From an uncultured Prevotellaceae bacterium (GTDB taxonomy: Bacteria; Bacteroidota; Bacteroidia; Bacteroidales; Bacteroidaceae), in assembly GCA_947174565.1 (NCBI GenBank), contig CAMWJL010000018.1, forward strand, positions 1 to 32,533: a stretch of 32,533 bases of DNA, read 5' to 3'. Shown here one piece after another: positions 16,350-24,861 of this stretch. Below the pieces are notes generated by a model. The model searched no databases, was not told where the DNA came from, and saw nothing but the letters and a program-made list of their open reading frames with translations. Numbering within the stretch: position 1 is the first letter of the stretch; each line of letters begins with the position of its first letter. The translations under genes and the position numbers were made by a program.

Positions 16350-16397
16350 AAAGCGAAGAAGCCACTCATCATCCCGATGAGTGGCTTCTTCGCTTTT
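16350..16397. terminator. 21-bp perfect hairpin terminator after galK
   Basis: Arms 16350-16370 and 16376-16396 are perfectly complementary over 21 bp around an ATCCC loop, with A-rich left and T-rich right ends, so it can act in both directions. A smaller 7-bp hairpin (CCGCTTC at 16323-16329, GAAGCGG at 16337-16343) precedes it. Confidence 0.9.
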
Positions 16398-16738
16398 CTG
16401 TCTGAGTCAACTGCACTTGTTGAAAAAACAAAAGAAACTCTACTCGCAAAACATTGCGTTTTCATTGTGGACGCGTTGCCCTGAATGACCCTCAAAAACG
16501 ATGTCCCCGACATCGACCAATCGGAGTCCCCGACATCGACTGACCGATGTCGGGGACTCCGATTTAGAGGCTGTGGAAGCACGCCATACACAGAAGAGAC
16601 TTTCAGCATGTGGCGACTTCGGATTCATGAAACAAATGCAATCGGGAACACATCATTGCTATATTGGGAGCGATAATCACGGTTGTTGCCCTCCTTTCTT
16701 TGTAAAAAAGGCTTCAAAAAGTGTAGCGCGCACACTTT
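16398..16738. other. Intergenic region between galactose and arabinose loci
   Basis: No convincing gene is present in these 341 bases. Open frames here are short, overlap the repeats on both strands and resemble nothing recognisable. The region holds repeat array B (16503-16564); nothing else is recognised until the palindrome and promoter just before the next gene. Confidence 0.7.
16503..16564. repeat. 23-bp-period repeat B with inverted copy (20-bp hairpin)
   Basis: GTCCCCGACATCGAC occurs at 16503-16517 and 16526-16540, exactly 23 bases apart. The second copy sits in a 20-bp perfect inverted repeat (16519-16538 with 16545-16564, loop ACTGAC). The first copy can compete for the same right arm through CCCCGACATCG. 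Confidence 0.85.
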
Positions 16739-16752
16739 ATGTTATAAAACAT
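16739..16752. promoter_or_regulatory. Candidate operator palindrome upstream of the arabinose locus
   Basis: ATGTTATAAAACAT is a 5-4-5 inverted repeat (ATGTT/AACAT) just upstream of the expected -33 position of the promoter whose -7 box is at 16787. An AraR-type regulator is encoded in the same locus, so this is a reasonable candidate site. No second copy was found, and the true AraR consensus was not checked. Confidence 0.35.
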
Positions 16753-16786
16753 GTTTTCGAGGGGGTAAAAAGCCGTAAAAAAGTCG

Positions 16787-16794
16787 TAACTTTG
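16787..16794 (+). promoter_or_regulatory. -7 box of the arabinose locus
   Basis: TAACTTTG lies 41 bases before the lipoprotein mutarotase ATG. The expected -33 position reads GGGT, a poor match, as would suit a regulated promoter. Confidence 0.65.
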
Positions 16795-16835
16795 GCGAAA
16801 TGTTTATAAACTAATTCTTATTCTAACCCAAAATT

Positions 16836-18062
16836 ATGAAAAATCTGAAAACGATTCTGATGGGAAGTGCTGCGGCTGTAGCATTCCTGTGTGCATGTAA
16901 TTCTGCACAGAATCCAGCCTCAGAGCTGACGAAGTCGGGCATCAATCCTGCCGACTATGACACCTGTATCGCAGTGGCATACGATGCTGCAACCAAAACC
17001 TTCATGGCTGACTCATCGGAAGCTAAGCCTGTGAAACTCTACACGCTCACCAACAAGAACGGCATGGAAGTGTGTATCACGAACTTCGGTGGACGCATCG
17101 TGAGCATCATGGTGCCCAACAAGGACGGCGAACTCGTTGACGTTGCCTGTGGTTTCGACAAGGTGGAGAACTATTTCCCATGGAACTACGAGACAGACTT
17201 CGGTTGCTCTGTGGGTCGCTATGCCAACCGCATCAACAACGGTCAATACACCTACGACGGCACGACCGTGACTTTGGACAAGAACAACAACGGCGTGGCA
17301 TGCCTGCACGGCGGCTACACGGGCTGGCAGTATCAAGTGTATGACGTGCTGGAAGCAACAGAGCAGTCGCTCACCATCCAGCGCACGTCTCCAGCTGGCG
17401 ACAACAAGTTCCCCGCCACCGTGGTGGCTACGGTGAAGTTTGAGCTGACTGACGACAATGCCATCGTCATCAACTACGACGGCAAGGCCGACGCTCCTAC
17501 TGTGCTCAACATGACCAACCACACTTACTTCAACCTCTCGGGCGACTTGAACAACACTATCGACGAGTCCATCCTGACGGTGAATGCCGACAACTACACC
17601 CCTGGCGACCACAACCTGATTCCAACTGGCGAGATTCGTCCTGTGGAAGGCACTGTGTTTGACTTCCGCGCCCCCAAGGCTATCGGTACCGACTTCGGCA
17701 AGAACGACCCCGAAATGGTGGCTGTTGGCGGCGGTTACGACCACAACTGGGTGCTCAACACCAAGGGCGACCAAAACACCATTTGCGCAACTATGGTTGA
17801 CCCACGCTCAGGCATCAAGATGGACATGTACACCAACGAGCCAGGTGTTCAGTGCTACACTGCCAACTTCCAAGACGGCACTCGTCCAGGCAAGGGCGGC
17901 ATCATGTATCAGAAGCACTGCGCCATCTGCCTCGAAAGCCAGAAGTTCCCTGATTCTCCCAACAAATACACCCTGCCAGGTTGGGAACTCAGCAATCCAT
18001 TCGTTACTCCCGAGAAGCCATACCACTCTTACTGCAAGTATGCCTTCTCCATCGCAGAATAA
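16836..18062 (+). CDS. Aldose 1-epimerase, predicted lipoprotein
   Basis: This 408-residue mutarotase is related to the galM product at 12701 but has a lipoprotein signal peptide: MKNLKTILMG, a hydrophobic core, and lipobox LCA then C21. It is therefore expected outside the cytoplasm, anchored to the inner or outer membrane. Catalytic motifs are kept: CLHGGYTGW, the histidine in NMTNHTYFNL, and the glutamate in TNEPGVQCYT. About 45 extra residues lie between the lipid anchor and the catalytic domain. It starts the arabinose locus, 49 bases before the symporter, so it may convert newly released arabinose anomers at the cell surface for uptake; that role is inferred from context. Confidence 0.9.
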   Translation: MKNLKTILMGSAAAVAFLCACNSAQNPASELTKSGINPADYDTCIAVAYDAATKTFMADSSEAKPVKLYTLTNKNGMEVCITNFGGRIVSIMVPNKDGELVDVACGFDKVENYFPWNYETDFGCSVGRYANRINNGQYTYDGTTVTLDKNNNGVACLHGGYTGWQYQVYDVLEATEQSLTIQRTSPAGDNKFPATVVATVKFELTDDNAIVINYDGKADAPTVLNMTNHTYFNLSGDLNNTIDESILTVNADNYTPGDHNLIPTGEIRPVEGTVFDFRAPKAIGTDFGKNDPEMVAVGGGYDHNWVLNTKGDQNTICATMVDPRSGIKMDMYTNEPGVQCYTANFQDGTRPGKGGIMYQKHCAICLESQKFPDSPNKYTLPGWELSNPFVTPEKPYHSYCKYAFSIAE

Positions 18063-18111: not shown

Positions 18112-20079
18112 ATGGACACATCACAAATGAGTTTCACCGAAGCGATAAGTCAGAGTGGCTTTGAGACCATCGACTTTATCATTTTGGTTGTTTACATCAT
18201 CCTGCTCGTGAGCCTCGGCATGTTCCTCAGCCGCGACAAGGATGGTAAAGAAAAGAGTGCAAACGACTACTTCCTCGCTGGCAACACGCTGACATGGTGG
18301 GCAGTAGGTGCTTCACTCATTGCCGCAAACATTTCTGCCGAGCAGTTCATCGGCATGTCGGGCACAGGTTATGCCGACGGCATTGCCATTGCCGCCTACG
18401 AGGTGATGGCAGCTGTGACACTGGTCATTATCGGTAAGTTCCTGCTCCCAACCATGATTGAACGCAAGATTTTCACCATCCCCCAGTTCCTCCGCGAACG
18501 CTACAACGACGGTGTAGGTCTTGCTTTCTCTATCCTGTGGCTCTTCCTCTATGTTTTCGTCAACCTGACCTCTGTGGCATGGCTGGGTGCTCTTGCCATC
18601 GAGCAGATTCTCGGCTTGCAAGGACTGGTAATCACAGTTGGCGGAATGGAGATTTCCATGCGCATGATTATCATTATCAGCCTCTTCCTCATCGCAGGTA
18701 TCTACTCTATCTATGGCGGTTTGGCTTCTGTGGCATGGACCGACGTGATGCAAGTGACCTTCCTCGTTGGCGGTGGTTTGGTGACAGCCTACTTTGCCCT
18801 CTGCTCTGTGGCAGGCGATGATGGCACATTCATCGATGGCTTCAACAAAGTTTATACTTACCTGACCTCAGGCGATTATGCCCAAGACACACATTTCCAC
18901 TTGGTTATCCAGCGTTCCAGTGCCATGCTGCACCCACACGCTGACGGTTCTAACGCATTCGACAACGTGCCCGGCATCGCAGCTGTGGTGGGTGGCGTAT
19001 GGTTGACCAACCTCGGCTACTGGGGCTTCAACCAGTACATCATCCAGAAGGGCTTGGCTGCCAAGAGCATCGACGAGGCCAAGAAGGGTCTTGTGTTTGC
19101 AGGCTTCTTGAAGATTCTCATCCCATTCATCGTGGTGCTCCCAGGCATCTGCGCATTCTACATGGCAAAGAACGCTGACATGTTCACTCACTTGCAAGGT
19201 TCTATCAATGTGGCCGATGACGCATATCCTTGGCTCATCCGCAACTTCACCCCAACTGGTATTAAGGGTCTCTCATTCGCAGCCCTCGCAGCAGCCATCA
19301 TCTCGTCACTCGCTTCTATGTTCAACAGTACTTCTACCCTCTTCACGATGGACATCTACAAGAAGTACATCAACAAGACTGCGACAGACAAGACATTGGT
19401 GAATGTTGGTCGTATTGTGGCTGTAGCCGCTCTCATCATTGCAGCAATATCTGTGCAACCTCTCCTCGGCGGTCTCGACCAGGCCTTCCAGTACATTCAG
19501 GAGTATTCAGGCTTCATCTATCCTGGCATCATCACAGTGTTTGGTCTCGGTCTGCTCTGGAAGCGCGCCTCTTCAACAGCCGCCATCTGGACAGCCATCA
19601 TCACCATCCCACTCGGTGTCATCTTCAAGGTGGCCTTCCCTGACGTTGCCTTCCAGTTCCGTGCTGGCTACATCTTCATCATCGTCGTAAGCTTCTTCAT
19701 TTTGGTGAGCCTCCTCGACAAGAAATTTGTGAGCGTTAAGACACCAGCAGAGAAGGACGTGAAGACCATGCTTAAATGGGCTTGCATCCTCGGCAGCATC
19801 GGTCTCCTCTGCATCCTTGCAGGCATCATCGTAGTTGTCATGGGCGACTCAACCGCACTCACTACCTACCTCAACGACATCGGTTTCCAAGCATTCATCT
19901 TCTTCGGTGTGTTGGTAGGCTGCAATGCAGTATGGCTCTACAGCAACTCCAAGGACACAAAGGCCGACCCCAAGGCTCTGCCTATCGACCTCAGCCTGTT
20001 CCGCACCACTCGCGGCTACACCTATGGCACTATCGGCATCTGTGTCATCACGATGATTCTCTACATCCTGCTCTGGTAA
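18112..20079 (+). CDS. Sodium/sugar symporter (SSS family), likely for L-arabinose
   Basis: This 655-residue protein has about 14 membrane segments of the solute:sodium symporter (SGLT-like) family. Family features are NDYFLAGNTLTWWAVGASLI, ANISAEQFIGMSGTGY, the FTIPQFLRERY stretch, and the LAAAIISSLASMFNSTSTLFTMDIYKK segment with the serines that form the Na2 site in homologues. The position between a mutarotase and araR/araD/araA points to arabinose, and the order matches the Bacteroides-type arabinose cluster as remembered. It is 38 bases before araR and probably co-transcribed. Confidence 0.9.
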   Translation: MDTSQMSFTEAISQSGFETIDFIILVVYIILLVSLGMFLSRDKDGKEKSANDYFLAGNTLTWWAVGASLIAANISAEQFIGMSGTGYADGIAIAAYEVMAAVTLVIIGKFLLPTMIERKIFTIPQFLRERYNDGVGLAFSILWLFLYVFVNLTSVAWLGALAIEQILGLQGLVITVGGMEISMRMIIIISLFLIAGIYSIYGGLASVAWTDVMQVTFLVGGGLVTAYFALCSVAGDDGTFIDGFNKVYTYLTSGDYAQDTHFHLVIQRSSAMLHPHADGSNAFDNVPGIAAVVGGVWLTNLGYWGFNQYIIQKGLAAKSIDEAKKGLVFAGFLKILIPFIVVLPGICAFYMAKNADMFTHLQGSINVADDAYPWLIRNFTPTGIKGLSFAALAAAIISSLASMFNSTSTLFTMDIYKKYINKTATDKTLVNVGRIVAVAALIIAAISVQPLLGGLDQAFQYIQEYSGFIYPGIITVFGLGLLWKRASSTAAIWTAIITIPLGVIFKVAFPDVAFQFRAGYIFIIVVSFFILVSLLDKKFVSVKTPAEKDVKTMLKWACILGSIGLLCILAGIIVVVMGDSTALTTYLNDIGFQAFIFFGVLVGCNAVWLYSNSKDTKADPKALPIDLSLFRTTRGYTYGTIGICVITMILYILLW

Positions 20080-20104
20080 AAACTACACATTATATATAAT
20101 ATAG

Positions 20105-20260
20105 AAGCCTCCAATCAATGACAGCATACCAGTCATACCCGCAGTTCTACGTGTCCGTCGATTGTATCATCTTCGGATTTGCAGAAGGACACTTGAAGGT
20201 GCTGATACATCAGCGACCCTACGAGCCGGGCATGGGCGAGCAGTCATTGATTGGAGGCTT
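20105..20260 (+). promoter_or_regulatory. 18-nt perfect complementarity between the araR start region and its Nudix-box codons
   Basis: AAGCCTCCAATCAATGAC (20105-20122, start codon at 20118-20120) is the exact reverse complement of GTCATTGATTGGAGGCTT (20243-20260), which lies inside the araR coding sequence. In the mRNA this would close a 120-base loop and bury the start codon in an 18-bp helix. The pairing is seen directly in the sequence; a regulatory effect is inference. Confidence 0.7.
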
Positions 20261-20765
20261 TGTCCAAACAAACGAAAGCGTGGATTCTTCGGCCAAGCGC
20301 ATCCTGAAAGAGTTCACGGGTCTCGACAACGTATATATGCAACAACTTGCCGCTTATGGTGAAGTGGAACGCGACCCAGGCGAGCGAGTCATCAGTATTG
20401 TCTATTATGCGCTCATCAATGTGGACAACTACGACCAAACGTTTTCCGACCTACACAACGCCAAATGGGTGGATGTGGATCATCTACCCACTCTCTGTCT
20501 TGACCATCGCGACATGGTGCAGAAGGCTCGCCGAAAACTTGGCGAAACCATCAAGAACGAACCCATCGGCAGCAACCTCTTGCCCCGATACTTCACGCTG
20601 AGCCTGCTTCAAGCACTCTATGAAAGCATCCTCGGCACCTCAATAGACAAACGGAATTTCCGCCGCGCTATCTCAGAAAAAGACTATATCAAGCCCACAG
20701 GCATGATAGACAAAGCGTCTTCACGCCGTGGTGCCACACTATACCAATTTACAATGAATGATTGA
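20118..20765 (+). CDS. araR: AraR-type transcriptional regulator (degenerate Nudix plus winged helix)
   Basis: This 215-residue protein has an N-terminal Nudix-fold domain (about 8-140) and a C-terminal winged-helix DNA-binding region (about 145-210, including LLPRYFTLSLLQALYESILG and DKRNFRRAISEKDYIK). The Nudix box (G47, E53, R61, L63, E65, G68) lacks the glutamates expected at 62 (Ile) and 66 (Phe), so hydrolysis is unlikely and a ligand-sensing role is expected. In Bacteroides a Nudix-family AraR controls arabinose use and responds to L-arabinose; that is family knowledge. It sits between the symporter and araD. The start region is perfectly complementary to codons about 41-48 of this gene (see 20105-20260). 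Confidence 0.88.
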   Translation: MTAYQSYPQFYVSVDCIIFGFAEGHLKVLIHQRPYEPGMGEQSLIGGFVQTNESVDSSAKRILKEFTGLDNVYMQQLAAYGEVERDPGERVISIVYYALINVDNYDQTFSDLHNAKWVDVDHLPTLCLDHRDMVQKARRKLGETIKNEPIGSNLLPRYFTLSLLQALYESILGTSIDKRNFRRAISEKDYIKPTGMIDKASSRRGATLYQFTMND

Positions 20766-20822: not shown

Positions 20823-21533
20823 ATGTTAGAAGAACTGAAAGAAAAAGTGTTCAAGGCAAACCTCGACTTGGTAAAGCAAGGACTCGTTATCTTCACATGG
20901 GGTAACGTCTCAGGCATCGACCGAGAGAAGGGTCTCGTAGTAATCAAGCCTTCTGGTGTCAGCTACGACGATATGAAGGCAAGCGACATGGTGGTGGTTG
21001 ACTTGGAGAGCGGCAAAGTGGTGGAAGGCGACCTCAATCCTTCGTCGGACACTCCAACTCACCTTGTGCTCTATAAGGCATTCCCCAACATTCAAGGCGT
21101 GGTTCACACCCACTCCACCTATGCCACCGCCTTTGCACAGGCTGGCAAGGACATCCCCAACATCGGCACGACCCATGCCGACTACTTCTACAAGGCTATC
21201 CCTTGCACACGCGACATGACAAAGGAAGAGGTGGAAGGTCAGTATGAGTTGGAGACGGGCAATGTGATTGTTGACGAAATCCTCAACATCCGCAAGATTA
21301 ACCCTGACCACACCCCAGCCGTGCTGGTGAAGAACCATGGTCCTTTTTCTTGGGGCACATCTCCTGATAATGCCGTTTATAACGCCAAGGTGATGGAACA
21401 GTGCGCCAAGATGGCTTTCGTCGCTTTCTCGGTTAATCCTAACTTGACCATGAATCCGCTCCTCATCGAGAAACACTACAACCGTAAGCATGGTCCTAAC
21501 GCTTACTATGGTCAGAAAGGTCAGAAGCACTAA
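20823..21533 (+). CDS. araD: L-ribulose-5-phosphate 4-epimerase
   Basis: This 236-residue class II aldolase-like, metal-dependent enzyme converts L-ribulose-5-phosphate to D-xylulose-5-phosphate. Metal ligands H95 and H97 (VHTHSTYA) and H172 (VKNHGPFSW) are present, as is D76 in SSDTPTH, matching the positions of the E. coli enzyme closely. The N-terminal [12 protein letters not shown] is the phosphate-binding loop. It lies 57 bases after araR and before araA. No TAnnTTTG box is seen in the gap, so co-transcription is likely. Confidence 0.95.
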
Positions 21534-21662: not shown

Positions 21663-23198
21663 ATGGCTTTTGAAAATTTGGAACTTTGGTGGGTGACTGG
21701 TGCGCAGTTGCTCTATGGTGGCGAAACAGTGAAGATTGTTGACGGTCACTCAAAAGAAATGGTTGAGGGTCTCAACAATAGTGGTATCATCCCTGTCAAG
21801 GTAGTTTATAAAGGCACTGCCAATTCTTCTAAGGAAGTAGAGGCTGTGATGAAGGCTGCCAACAACGACGAAAAGTGTGCTGGTGTCATCACTTGGATGC
21901 ACACTTTCTCTCCTGCCAAGATGTGGATTAAGGGCTTACAGGACCTCCAAAAGCCACTCCTCCACTTCCACACACAGTACAACGCAGAGATTCCATGGAG
22001 CGAGATTGACATGGACTTCATGAACCTCAACCAGTCGGCTCATGGTGACATCGAGTTCGGTCATATCTGTACTCGTATGCGTGTGCCTCGCAAGGTAGTA
22101 TGCGGCTACTGGAAGGACGAACAGGCTCAGAAGCAGATTGCAGTTTGGGCGCGTGTAGCAGCAGGTGTAGCCGATGCCAAGAACGTTCGCTGCCTCATGT
22201 TCGGCATGAACATGAACAACGTGTCTGTGACCGACGGAGACCGTGTAGAGTTCGAGCAGCGTATGGGCTACCATGTTGACTACTACCCTGTTTCTTCTCT
22301 CATGGAGTATTTCAAGCAAGTAACTGACGCAGAAGCAGATGCACTCGTTGAAGAATACAAGAAGGAATACACTATCAAGATTGACGAATCTGGCGAACAA
22401 GTATATTGGGAGAAGGTAAAGAATGCCGCTAAGGCTGAAATCGCCCTGCGCCGTGTCTTGAAGGACGAGGGCGCAACGGCCTTCACTACCAACTTCGATG
22501 ACCTTGGCGATGCTGACATCAATGACCCCAATTTCGTTGGTTTCGACCAAATCCCAGGTCTCGCTTCACAGCGTCTCATGGCCGAAGGTTACGGCTTCGG
22601 TGCTGAGGGTGACTGGAAAACCGCTTGCCTCTATCGTACATTGTGGGTTATCTCTCAAGGTCTGCCCACAGGTTGCTCATTCTTAGAGGATTACACCCTC
22701 AACTTCGCTGGCGACCGCTCGTCTTGCCTCCAGAGCCACATGCTCGAAGTTTGTCCGCTCATCGCTGTCGATAAGCCAACGCTTGAGGTACACTTCCTTG
22801 GCATCGGTATCCGCAAGCAGCAGACCGCTCGTCTCGTGTTCACATCGAAGGTAGGTCGCGGCATCAAGGCCACTGTTGTTGACCTCGGCAACCGCTTCCG
22901 CCTCATCTCTCAGGAAGTAGAGTGTATTGAGCCCAAGCCCATGCCAAACCTTCCTGTAGCATCCGCTCTTTGGGTTCCACAGCCAACCTTCGAGATTGGT
23001 GCAGGCGCATGGATTCTCGCTGGTGGCACACACCACAGTGCTTTCTCCTACGACATCACCGAGGAGTATTGGGAGGACTTCGCAGAGATGCTTGGCATTG
23101 AGTATGTGAAGATTAACAAGAACACTACTATCAGCGAGTTCAAGCACGACCTCCAGATGAACGAGGTATATTACATGCTGAACAAGGCACTGAAGTAA
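21663..23198 (+). CDS. araA: L-arabinose isomerase
   Basis: This 511-residue enzyme converts L-arabinose to L-ribulose. The metal-binding and catalytic residues are E315 (GAEGDWKTA), E342 (FLEDYTLNF), H359 (SHMLEVCP) and H457/H458 (GGTHHSAFS), each about nine positions later than in E. coli AraA. The N-terminal LELWWVTGAQLLYGGE is characteristic. The 129-base gap before it has no obvious promoter; it contains a weak repeat (CCCTCGG at 21572 and 21595). It is followed by a hairpin and the sugar kinase. Confidence 0.96.
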   Translation: MAFENLELWWVTGAQLLYGGETVKIVDGHSKEMVEGLNNSGIIPVKVVYKGTANSSKEVEAVMKAANNDEKCAGVITWMHTFSPAKMWIKGLQDLQKPLLHFHTQYNAEIPWSEIDMDFMNLNQSAHGDIEFGHICTRMRVPRKVVCGYWKDEQAQKQIAVWARVAAGVADAKNVRCLMFGMNMNNVSVTDGDRVEFEQRMGYHVDYYPVSSLMEYFKQVTDAEADALVEEYKKEYTIKIDESGEQVYWEKVKNAAKAEIALRRVLKDEGATAFTTNFDDLGDADINDPNFVGFDQIPGLASQRLMAEGYGFGAEGDWKTACLYRTLWVISQGLPTGCSFLEDYTLNFAGDRSSCLQSHMLEVCPLIAVDKPTLEVHFLGIGIRKQQTARLVFTSKVGRGIKATVVDLGNRFRLISQEVECIEPKPMPNLPVASALWVPQPTFEIGAGAWILAGGTHHSAFSYDITEEYWEDFAEMLGIEYVKINKNTTISEFKHDLQMNEVYYMLNKALK

Positions 23199-23268: not shown

Positions 23269-24861
23269 ATGACAGCAAAACAAACCATAGAATCAGGTAA
23301 AGCCATTCTCGGTATCGAGTTTGGCTCTACCCGTATCAAGGCAGTTCTCATCGACGAGGACTACAAGCCAATCGCTCAAGGCAGCCACACATGGGAAAAC
23401 CAGCTGGTGGATGGTCTTTGGACTTACAGCACTGAGGCTATCTGGTACGGTCTTCAAGACTGTTACGCCCAGTTGCGCAAGAATGTTCTGGAGCAATACG
23501 AGGTTGAGATTGAGACACTTGCCGCCATTGGTATCAGTGCCATGATGCACGGCTACATGCCTTTCAAAGGCAACGACATCCTCGTGCCTTTCCGCACTTG
23601 GCGCAACACCAACACGGGCAAGGCTGCAGCCGAACTTTCCAAGCTCTTTAACTACAACATTCCTCTACGCTGGAGTATCTCACACCTCTACGAGGCCATC
23701 CTCGACAACGAGGAGCATGTGAAGGACATCGAGTTTCTCACCACCCTCGCTGGCTATATCCACTGGCAGATTACGGGTCAGAAAGTGCTGGGTGTGGGTG
23801 ACGCATCGGGCATGATTCCTGTTGACCCCAAAACAAAGACTTACGACACCACGATGGTGGAGAAGTTCGACAAACTCATTAAGCCACGAGGCTTCGGCTG
23901 GAAGTTGCTTGACATCCTGCCTAAGTCATTGAATGCTGGCGAGAACGCAGGTTTCCTCACTCCCGAGGGAGCCAACCGTCTTGACGTGTCAGGGCACTTG
24001 AAACCAGGCATCCCCGTATGTCCTCCCGAAGGTGACGCAGGCACAGGCATGGTGGCCACAAACGCAGTGAAGCAGCGCACTGGCAACGTGTCAGCAGGCA
24101 CATCTTCGTTCTCCATGATTGTACTGGAGAAGGAGCTTTCCAAGCCCTACGAAATGATTGACATGGTGACCACTCCAGACGGCTCGCTCGTGGCAATGGT
24201 ACACTGCAACAACTGCACCTCCGATATCAACGCTTGGGTGAAGATATTCAAGGAGTTCCAAGAGCTGATGGGCATGTCCGTTGACATGAACCAACTGTAT
24301 GTCAACCTCTTCAACACCGCTTTGAAGGGCGATGCTGACTGTGGTGGCGTGCTGTCCTACAACTATGTGTCAGGCGAGCCTGTCACAGGTCTCTCTGATG
24401 GTCGTCCACTCTTTGTGCGTTCAGCCAACGACAAGTTCAATCTCGCCAACTTCATGCGTGCCCACCTCTATGGTGCTATCGGTGTGCTCAAGATTGGCAA
24501 CGACGTGCTCTTCAATGAGGAGAACGTGAAGGTGGATCGCATCATGGGTCATGGCGGCTACTTCACCACTCCGAAAGTGGGTCAACAAATGCTTGCAGCT
24601 GCCCTCAACTCCCCAATCTCTGTCATGGAGACAGCGGGCGAAGGTGGCGCATGGGGCATCGCACTCCTCGCTGCTTATATGGTCAATAACGACAAGAAAC
24701 TCTCCCTTGCCGACTATCTCGACCAAGTGGTCTTCGCAGGCAACGCAGGTGTAGAAATCAAGCCAACTCCCGAAGACGTGGCTGGCTTCAACGCCTACAT
24801 AGAGAACTACAAGAAGGGCTTAGTCATTGAGCAAGCAGCAGTAGATAACAAGAAAAATTGA
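23269..24861 (+). CDS. araB: FGGY-family sugar kinase, probably L-ribulokinase
   Basis: This 530-residue protein has the two-domain FGGY kinase fold. The N-terminal phosphate loop is LGIEFGSTRIKAVLID, a second nucleotide-binding segment is GNVSAGTSSFSMIVLEKE, and the C-terminal adenosine motif includes RIMGHGGYFTTPKVGQQMLA. By sequence feel it is nearer xylulokinase-like FGGY kinases than to E. coli AraB. Because it lies directly between araA and transketolase, phosphorylation of L-ribulose is the simplest role. The Bacteroides arabinose cluster, as remembered, also uses such a kinase. Whether it also phosphorylates xylulose cannot be told from sequence. Confidence 0.85.
   Translation: MTAKQTIESGKAILGIEFGSTRIKAVLIDEDYKPIAQGSHTWENQLVDGLWTYSTEAIWYGLQDCYAQLRKNVLEQYEVEIETLAAIGISAMMHGYMPFKGNDILVPFRTWRNTNTGKAAAELSKLFNYNIPLRWSISHLYEAILDNEEHVKDIEFLTTLAGYIHWQITGQKVLGVGDASGMIPVDPKTKTYDTTMVEKFDKLIKPRGFGWKLLDILPKSLNAGENAGFLTPEGANRLDVSGHLKPGIPVCPPEGDAGTGMVATNAVKQRTGNVSAGTSSFSMIVLEKELSKPYEMIDMVTTPDGSLVAMVHCNNCTSDINAWVKIFKEFQELMGMSVDMNQLYVNLFNTALKGDADCGGVLSYNYVSGEPVTGLSDGRPLFVRSANDKFNLANFMRAHLYGAIGVLKIGNDVLFNEENVKVDRIMGHGGYFTTPKVGQQMLAAALNSPISVMETAGEGGAWGIALLAAYMVNNDKKLSLADYLDQVVFAGNAGVEIKPTPEDVAGFNAYIENYKKGLVIEQAAVDNKKN

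Follow-up and report, generated by a model that had tools for sequence, protein, structure and literature searches.

A long-range inverted repeat is predicted to pair the translation start of araR, the gene of a predicted arabinose repressor, with codons inside the same gene on contig CAMWJL010000018.1 of an uncultured Prevotellaceae bacterium (GenBank assembly GCA_947174565.1; positions 1 to 32,533, the whole 32,533-nucleotide stretch being called the window here). By comparison of related genomes, the resulting duplex is almost certainly a real RNA structure kept by selection. Its likeliest role, to which we give a probability of about two in three, would be that of an intragenic start lock that limits AraR synthesis from the induced operon, with initiation mainly on nascent messenger RNA (mRNA). 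What was computed is the pairing itself and how far it is conserved, the compensatory changes, the constraint on synonymous sites and the predicted accessibility.

The upstream copy, AAGCCTCCAATCAATGAC (20105-20122), includes the araR ATG, and the downstream copy, GTCATTGATTGGAGGCTT (20243-20260), is its exact 18-nucleotide (nt) reverse complement, made up of codons 43-48 (S-L-I-G-G-F) and one base of codon 42. A preliminary description of this DNA had reported two such arms, the second encoding LIGGF; its sequences and coordinates are correct, and the arm proved to span all six S-L-I-G-G-F codons. A repeat-finding tool extended the match to 21 nt with 20 of 21 positions paired (95%) and 114 nt between the arms, and this was the sole inverted repeat of at least 12 nt that it reported in 19900-20500. 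The gene and the parts of the duplex are:

20118..20765, + strand: araR, encoding a Nudix-like domain and an NrtR/AraR winged helix repressor, ATG at 20118-20120
20104..20125, + strand: upstream duplex arm, -14 to +8 of araR, start codon included
20126..20239, + strand: loop of 114 nt, araR codon 3 to codon 41
20240..20261, + strand: downstream duplex arm, last base of codon 41 to codon 48 (QSLIGGF codons)

Folding of 20080-20300, a check proposed in the preliminary description, gave -72.1 kcal/mol (z = -3.97), and 0 of 200 shuffles were equally low. As genome background, the best pairing score of -20..+15 with +30..+300 was taken for 290 open reading frames (ORFs) of at least 100 codons in the window and in 20 stretches of its genome, each 20 kb long. 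The araR score is 38, against a background mean of 15.6 (standard deviation 3.5). Two other ORFs exceed 26, which is the next best score: one in L175 (41) and one at window 16501-16809 (32). A dispersed palindromic repeat has a copy at each of these two places, and both scores look spurious.

The comparison covered 117 araR loci: 30 from a search of 45 genomes aimed at the genus, one more (L159) from the same search, and 86 from a search of the family. The genus search matched 41 of its 45 genomes at E <= 0.001, more distant family members included; the family search (301 genomes, E <= 1e-70) gave 101 matches in 100 of the 301 genomes, 15 of them already among the first 30. Rows L031-L048 (contigs shared with loci among L001-L023) and L160 and L161 (which duplicate L094 and L088) were left out, as were L049-L072 save L066-L070, which were read once in checking matches to CCTCCAATCAATGAC. 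Relatives with 82-97% AraR identity appear to be uncultured Bacteroidaceae/Prevotellaceae, many from ruminant guts. The duplex occurs in register (-14..+8 with codons 41-48) in 29 of the 117 loci (L001-L024, L073, L074, L075, L079 and L094), comprising 25 of 32 loci of the window's genus, 3 of 3 of genus g29 and 1 of 5 of genus g17. In-register scores run from 23 to 46 in these 29 loci and reach at most 19 in the other 88, so that the split between duplex and no duplex is clean; the weakest duplexes are those of L017 (23) and L019 (27). When synonymous codons were shuffled within each gene, the mean z was 4.2 in the 29 loci and 0.29 in the other 88, the latter near chance over +30..+300 and a little higher than chance (0.64) for the Nudix stretch alone. 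An 18-base-pair (bp) match at this range had been called very unlikely by chance, and the genome background, the codon shuffles and the duplex across species all agree with that.

All 29 duplex loci fall within one clade of 37 tree rows (support 99/88; L079 is unlabelled on the tree), together with eight rows that have no duplex (L025-L030, L082 and L159). Single origin plus losses is the simple reading of this distribution; against it, the 28 labelled rows need four changes on the tree, at least three of them forced by supported branches. Exact matches to CCTCCAATCAATGAC on either strand were found in 22 of 399 sampled family genomes, some of them not an araR upstream arm. Two loci of genome G106 (genus g17) differ: L073 has the duplex and clusters with the window's genus, and L088 is without it, for which transfer or a binning error is possible.

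Covariation was assessed in 28 duplex loci, L079 not among them. RNAalifold recovered the stem unprompted from these sequences, and 93.3% of 504 alignment cells pair, compared with 19-48% when the partners are slid by 1-3 columns. The covariation score was reached in 2 of 500 shuffles, and as many doubly changed cells were seen in 5 of 500. When changes were mapped on a gene tree from which the arms had been excluded, three branches each showed a change of both sides that keeps the pair (A-U to U-A in L017; C-G to U-A in L013 and in L024), and a branch-shuffling test found four same-branch changes where 1.45 were expected (P = 0.028). Arm swaps among the 29 loci gave a mean of -30.2 kcal/mol for native arms and -28.5 kcal/mol for swapped arms, with a permutation P of 0.0002 both for the 29 loci and for 15 chosen representatives.

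Judged from its sequence, L079 (genome G036) is the strongest single case for selection on pairing. Its AraR is fast-evolving (62% identity) and keeps the same operon place, and the Nudix box has changed from IGGF to IGDF, a glycine to aspartate replacement. Both arms are rewritten, the upstream one from CCTCC to CCCC and the downstream one from GGAGGC to GGGGAT, with more changes near codon 2 and codons 42-43, and a continuous 17-bp helix is retained. The native arms reach -31.0 kcal/mol, compared with -23.0 and -19.8 kcal/mol with arms from other species. The comparison of relatives for compensatory change, suggested in the preliminary description, yielded both the three same-branch changes and this locus with both arms altered and the duplex kept.

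Synonymous change was examined in 25 loci, L079 not among them. Codons 45 (I), 46 (G) and 48 (F) show the lowest synonymous variation relative to codons for the same residue (0 of 13, 0 of 10 and 0 of 7 as low), and synonymous diversity is low over codons 45-48 (P = 0.0016) and 43-48 (P = 0.02); sets used earlier gave P = 0.08 (codons 44-47) and P = 0.05 (codons 45-47). For codons 45, 46 and 48 together, a set picked post hoc after seeing the data, 0 of 50000 draws were as low. Codon 47 is GGC in 16 loci, GGT in 8 and GGA in 1, and is thus mostly compatible with pairing. Upstream of the start, information content (ungapped column count, 28 loci) reaches 1.2-2.0 bits at -13..-1, compared with 0.5-1.2 bits at -29..-14. 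Cells at -14..-1 that depart from Watson-Crick pairing comprise 30 G-U, 3 A-C and 10 other, and those over -14..+4 comprise 35 G-U, 18 A-C and 18 other, the A-C count being higher because 13 loci carry A-C at the start codon. An RNA helix in mRNA tolerates G-U, and 10 of the 13 upstream bases from -13 to -1 allow G-U through a transition. Base composition alone favours G-U, so the G-U excess is supporting evidence and no proof.

Accessibility was calculated by equilibrium folding of truncated transcripts, as the unpaired probability of -13..+4. In the 29 duplex loci its mean stands at 0.55 with the transcript cut at +60, 0.57 at +100 and 0.56 at +115, then drops to 0.10 at +160 and 0.11 at +300, while it stays steady (0.53 to 0.51) in the 88 non-duplex loci. 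The start is thus predicted to be open until the later segment is made, with 27 of the 29 duplex loci below 0.25 at +160. The exceptions are L019 (0.63 at +160 and 0.51 at +300) and L017 (0.27 and 0.29), which is low at all lengths. The window's araR has an unpaired probability of 0.69 with the transcript ending at +100; folded to +300, it ranks second lowest in accessibility among 259 ORFs of 150 or more codons in its genome, the lowest being L163 7948-8898. Duplex energies range from -18.1 to -42.0 kcal/mol with a mean of -32.9 kcal/mol, compared with a mean of -11.7 kcal/mol in the other 88 loci. In a Prevotella bryantii reporter, upstream hairpins close to the start, far less stable than the duplex, lowered protein to 0.12 (-5.2 kcal/mol) and 0.007 (-11.1 kcal/mol) of the unstructured control, and a -2.1 kcal/mol hairpin had no effect (PMC3155529); the abstract of that paper gives five times lower protein for the -5.2 kcal/mol hairpin, as against 0.12 in its table. 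From the predicted drop in accessibility, the duplex energies and these hairpin effects, a start lock on the finished mRNA is proposed. The idea that self-pairing of the mRNA covers the initiation region had been put forward in the preliminary description, and it gains support from the cross-species comparison and the predicted accessibility.

By its gene order and family matches, the window carries an arabinose operon of the araMPRDAB type, arranged as reported for Bacteroides (PMC4666351). Around araR, its features are:

16718..16738, no strand assigned: candidate AraR operator AAAGTGTAGCGCGCACACTTT 5' of araM, with an AGTGT-N-ACAC pattern, similar by eye to the BtAraR sites printed in PMC4666351
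16836..18062, + strand: araM-like sugar mutarotase, first gene of the operon, with a galactose-1-epimerase subfamily match above cut-off and gene order as in PMC4666351
18112..20079, + strand: araP-like sodium/solute symporter, with an SSS superfamily match above cut-off, ending 38 nt 5' of araR
20823..21533, + strand: araD, the next operon gene after araR, with an AraD subfamily match above cut-off
21663-23198: araA, operon gene
23269-24861: sugar kinase in the araB place, with only below-cut-off NCBIfam matches

The AraR protein matches Pfam NUDIX, NrtR_WHD and AraR_C, all above their cut-offs, as an AraR of the NrtR family does; its score for the NCBIfam NtrR equivalog falls below the cut-off. 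AGTGT-N-ACAC occurs in the window at 16720 (both strands), upstream of the araMPRDAB-type operon, and on the minus strand at 17861 inside araM, with zero matches in the duplex arms. On this evidence araR probably sits inside the operon that AraR represses, so arabinose induction would also raise the repressor. In Bacteroides araR likewise lies within its own araMPRDAB operon, and the arabinose operon of B. cellulosilyticus is induced 5-10-fold on arabinose (PMC4666351). The order araM, araP, araR, araD and the upstream candidate operator agree with the earlier view of a regulator gene inside its own operon. Upstream of the operator, a hairpin followed by a T-rich stretch lies 3' of a galactokinase gene (window 16355-16400; by eye) and is a likely intrinsic terminator.

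We propose that pairing of the two arms gives the araR cistron a conserved, long-range duplex in its RNA that would shut the translation start and would most likely hold AraR output per operon mRNA low. On a growing transcript the upstream arm would be made about 120 nt before its partner, and ribosomes could initiate in that short window. A downstream arm that emerges ribosome-free would lock the start; closely following ribosomes that cover this arm would prevent locking. What opens the start could be the nascent state of the transcript, the movement of ribosomes, a protein or a cleavage event. From the computed results we infer that translation drops, that the nascent transcript offers such a window, how folding is timed and that the operon benefits. 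A more specific version, which we hold as possible and somewhat doubtful, is that the lock times itself: each transcript would yield a few repressors, started before the Nudix codons appear, output would follow transcription events and not mRNA lifetime, and selection would have kept the pairing through the Nudix-box glycine change of L079.

Several results weigh against a selected start lock. So tight a lock could leave araR near-silent, and for that reason some opening must exist. The numbers of pairs with a double change, and of those with further pair types, were reached by 35 of 500 shuffles; the P of 0.028 in the branch test is modest, and one of the four same-branch changes ends unpaired. 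Single-sided changes from a paired state broke pairing about as often as they kept it, both upstream (8 of 18 broke, 10 kept) and downstream (7 of 14 broke, 7 kept), four of the seven downstream breaks being a Leu codon that faces the fixed A of the start codon; that A stands opposite C in 13 of 28 loci. In the arm swaps native arms beat the mean swap in 16 of 29 loci for a locus's own upstream arm and in 21 of 29 for its own downstream arm, the arms of L017 pair better with those of other loci than with each other, and the permutation P is inflated by the relatedness of the loci. The duplex is absent from 7 of 32 loci of the window's genus, which are divergent, and from 81 of 85 loci of other genera. 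The preliminary description had named relatives that keep the protein and lose the complementarity as the finding that would tell against it. Close relatives keep both, with L017 and L019 as partial exceptions: these are sister species with 82-84% protein identity whose duplexes are weak or decayed, that of L019 hardly sequestering the start.

Among other explanations of a conserved duplex, an unlikely one would make araR translation responsive to a signal, with the duplex serving as a regulated switch that AraR itself, another protein, a metabolite or a small RNA could open. The closed state is very stable (mean -32.9 kcal/mol) and seems to require an opener, and the AT-rich leader directly upstream is conserved in the genus; however, the Rfam families, riboswitches included, gave 0 matches in the whole window at curated thresholds, a result obtained with no search for trans partners or an alternative fold. 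Much the same, or a shade less, can be said for processing of the double strand, by RNase III for instance, where cleavage inside araR would destroy the repressor message and separate araMP from araDAB. RNase III enzymes accept helices of about 20 bp, the duplex has about 20 nearly continuous bp, and processing would also explain the conservation, but mismatches within the helix vary between species. In L074, moreover, the arm stays with araR despite an upstream transporter sequence of a different kind (by eye). The duplex therefore belongs to araR, not to the tail of araP, as would be expected of control of araR more than of a cut that sets the preceding genes apart. Direct translational coupling to araP was rejected: 28 duplex loci have 37-111 nt between the two genes (58 nt from the upstream ORF in L094), and that of the window is beyond a terminating ribosome, whose footprint is shorter. 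Clade rows without the duplex have gaps to a transporter-like ORF of -7 (L030), 104 (L082), 119 (L029), 153 (L026), 279 (L028) and 546 nt (L025), and L027 has 603 nt to an upstream ORF with no transporter by eye, so the link between duplex and gap length within the clade is loose.

The remaining explanations dispense with a selected RNA structure. Template switching at imperfect palindromes, a mutation process that would keep the arms alike, could account for the several bases changed in both arms of L079, yet it is very improbable: pairing lasts across genera as the upstream flank diverges, codons 45, 46 and 48 show reduced synonymous change, and the exceptions at -14..-1 are mostly G-U (30, against 3 A-C and 10 other), which is support and no proof. 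Still less credit goes to a role of the repeat as DNA, in a repressor site or cruciform. AraR does bind semipalindromic DNA sites (PMC4666351), but the arms are 114 nt apart, G-U exceptions outnumber A-C in the upstream half, and the AGTGT-N-ACAC motif is absent from the arms and present upstream of araM (16718-16738), for which reason the arms were rejected as an AraR operator. Least probable of all is an accident of protein and codon constraints. The SLIGGF residues are conserved for protein reasons, and the 88 other loci show a real but weak excess in the duplex register (mean score 9.2, against 5-6.5 at most registers and 8.9 at register +4), 11 of the 88 reaching 15 there compared with 0.8% of cells at other registers. 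That excess is probably codon-driven (start ATGA with Ser-Leu codons), and the duplex may have grown from such a weak seed pairing. Codon coincidence is nevertheless disfavoured by the codon shuffles (mean z 4.2 in 29 loci, 0.29 in 88), by the scores (at least 23 against at most 19) and by the 13 upstream-arm bases that are non-coding.

Weak pairings between start and Nudix box also recur in loci without the duplex, at register 0 in L091, L112, L118 and L127 and at another register in L087, L103 and L147; they probably stem from codon constraint. Bacteroides-like loci repeatedly show a second weak pairing, of the LMGG codons with CCACCTATTA (codons 2-5). In L096, which is without this duplex, the start pairs strongly with a different stretch of araR (score 26, and z of 4.5 in the codon shuffle).

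Two further sequence elements recur in the genome. The first lies directly upstream of the duplex:

20085..20102, + strand: AT-rich leader element ACACATTATATATAATAT, conserved in the genus and recurring elsewhere in the genome

As motif ACACATTATNTATAATAT (window 20085-20102; L183-L189) the leader occurs at 19 places in the genome with at most 2 mismatches, compared with 2 for a reversed control, and ACACATTATATATAATAT was therefore rejected as an araR-specific signal; among the eight places shown, that of araR included, inspection by eye places an ATG no more than about 15 nt away in L183, L186 and L187. The second, GTCCCCGACATCG (window 16500-16570), is the palindromic dispersed repeat noted above, with 184 occurrences on both strands of the genome and 0 when read backwards. 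Often two direct copies stand with one inverted copy, copies also lie near the first bases of several contigs, and a variant is found at the start of ORF L175 9800-10117. It looks like a REP-like element.

If the start lock is correct, araR would carry a conserved, covarying lock in a phylum without Shine-Dalgarno starts, RNA alone would keep an operon-encoded repressor from damping its own operon, and a coding sequence would be constrained by its RNA partner. It could serve as a model for translational control in Bacteroidota, where starts are generally without Shine-Dalgarno sequences and structure has strong effects in reporters (PMC3155529). We recognised no description of such a start lock for araR in the literature covered, which takes in few subscription journals and leaves absence unproven. 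Bacteroides AraR BT0354 shares the repressor family, operon order and operator type, and the portions of that work consulted are concerned with its ligand and its binding to DNA, with neither RNA structure nor translational control of araR mentioned (PMC4666351). More generally, translation in E. coli operons correlates with structure across whole ORFs (PMC5318159), and in Flavobacterium it is tuned by structure around the start (PMC6847099).

Unlike araR, which is an internal gene of a catabolic operon, aapA3 and hok are type I toxin mRNAs whose action involves 3' processing and antisense RNA. In these toxin mRNAs a long-distance interaction makes the full-length form translationally inert (PMC6733600). 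Closer parallels are found in E. coli gnd, where an intragenic element complementary to the Shine-Dalgarno sequence can inhibit translation from within the coding sequence (PMC6733600), and in the phage MS2 maturation gene. As in gnd, an element in the araR coding sequence is complementary to the gene's own initiation region. Carter-Muenchau and Wolf are said to have described the gnd element in 1989 in connection with growth-rate control. The two differ in that the gnd element is short, lies around codon 66 and hides a Shine-Dalgarno sequence (PMC6733600), whereas the araR pairing is about 18-22 bp long, involves codons 41-48, covers -14 to +8 and covaries across species. No Shine-Dalgarno sequence is masked in araR, whose upstream arm is of CCTCC type with no GGAGG before the ATG, and Bacteroidetes genomes are generally without such sequences (PMC3155529). 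The start of the MS2 maturation gene is open on the growing strand and closed in the final fold (van Meerten 2001, as given in PMC6733600), and by equilibrium prediction the araR start behaves likewise, open while the strand grows and closed finally. The closing fold of MS2 is a cloverleaf in the 5' untranslated region (PMC6733600), while in araR the start would pair with the gene's own codons within a bacterial operon. By analogy, then, the proposed araR lock resembles the control of both E. coli gnd and the MS2 maturation gene.
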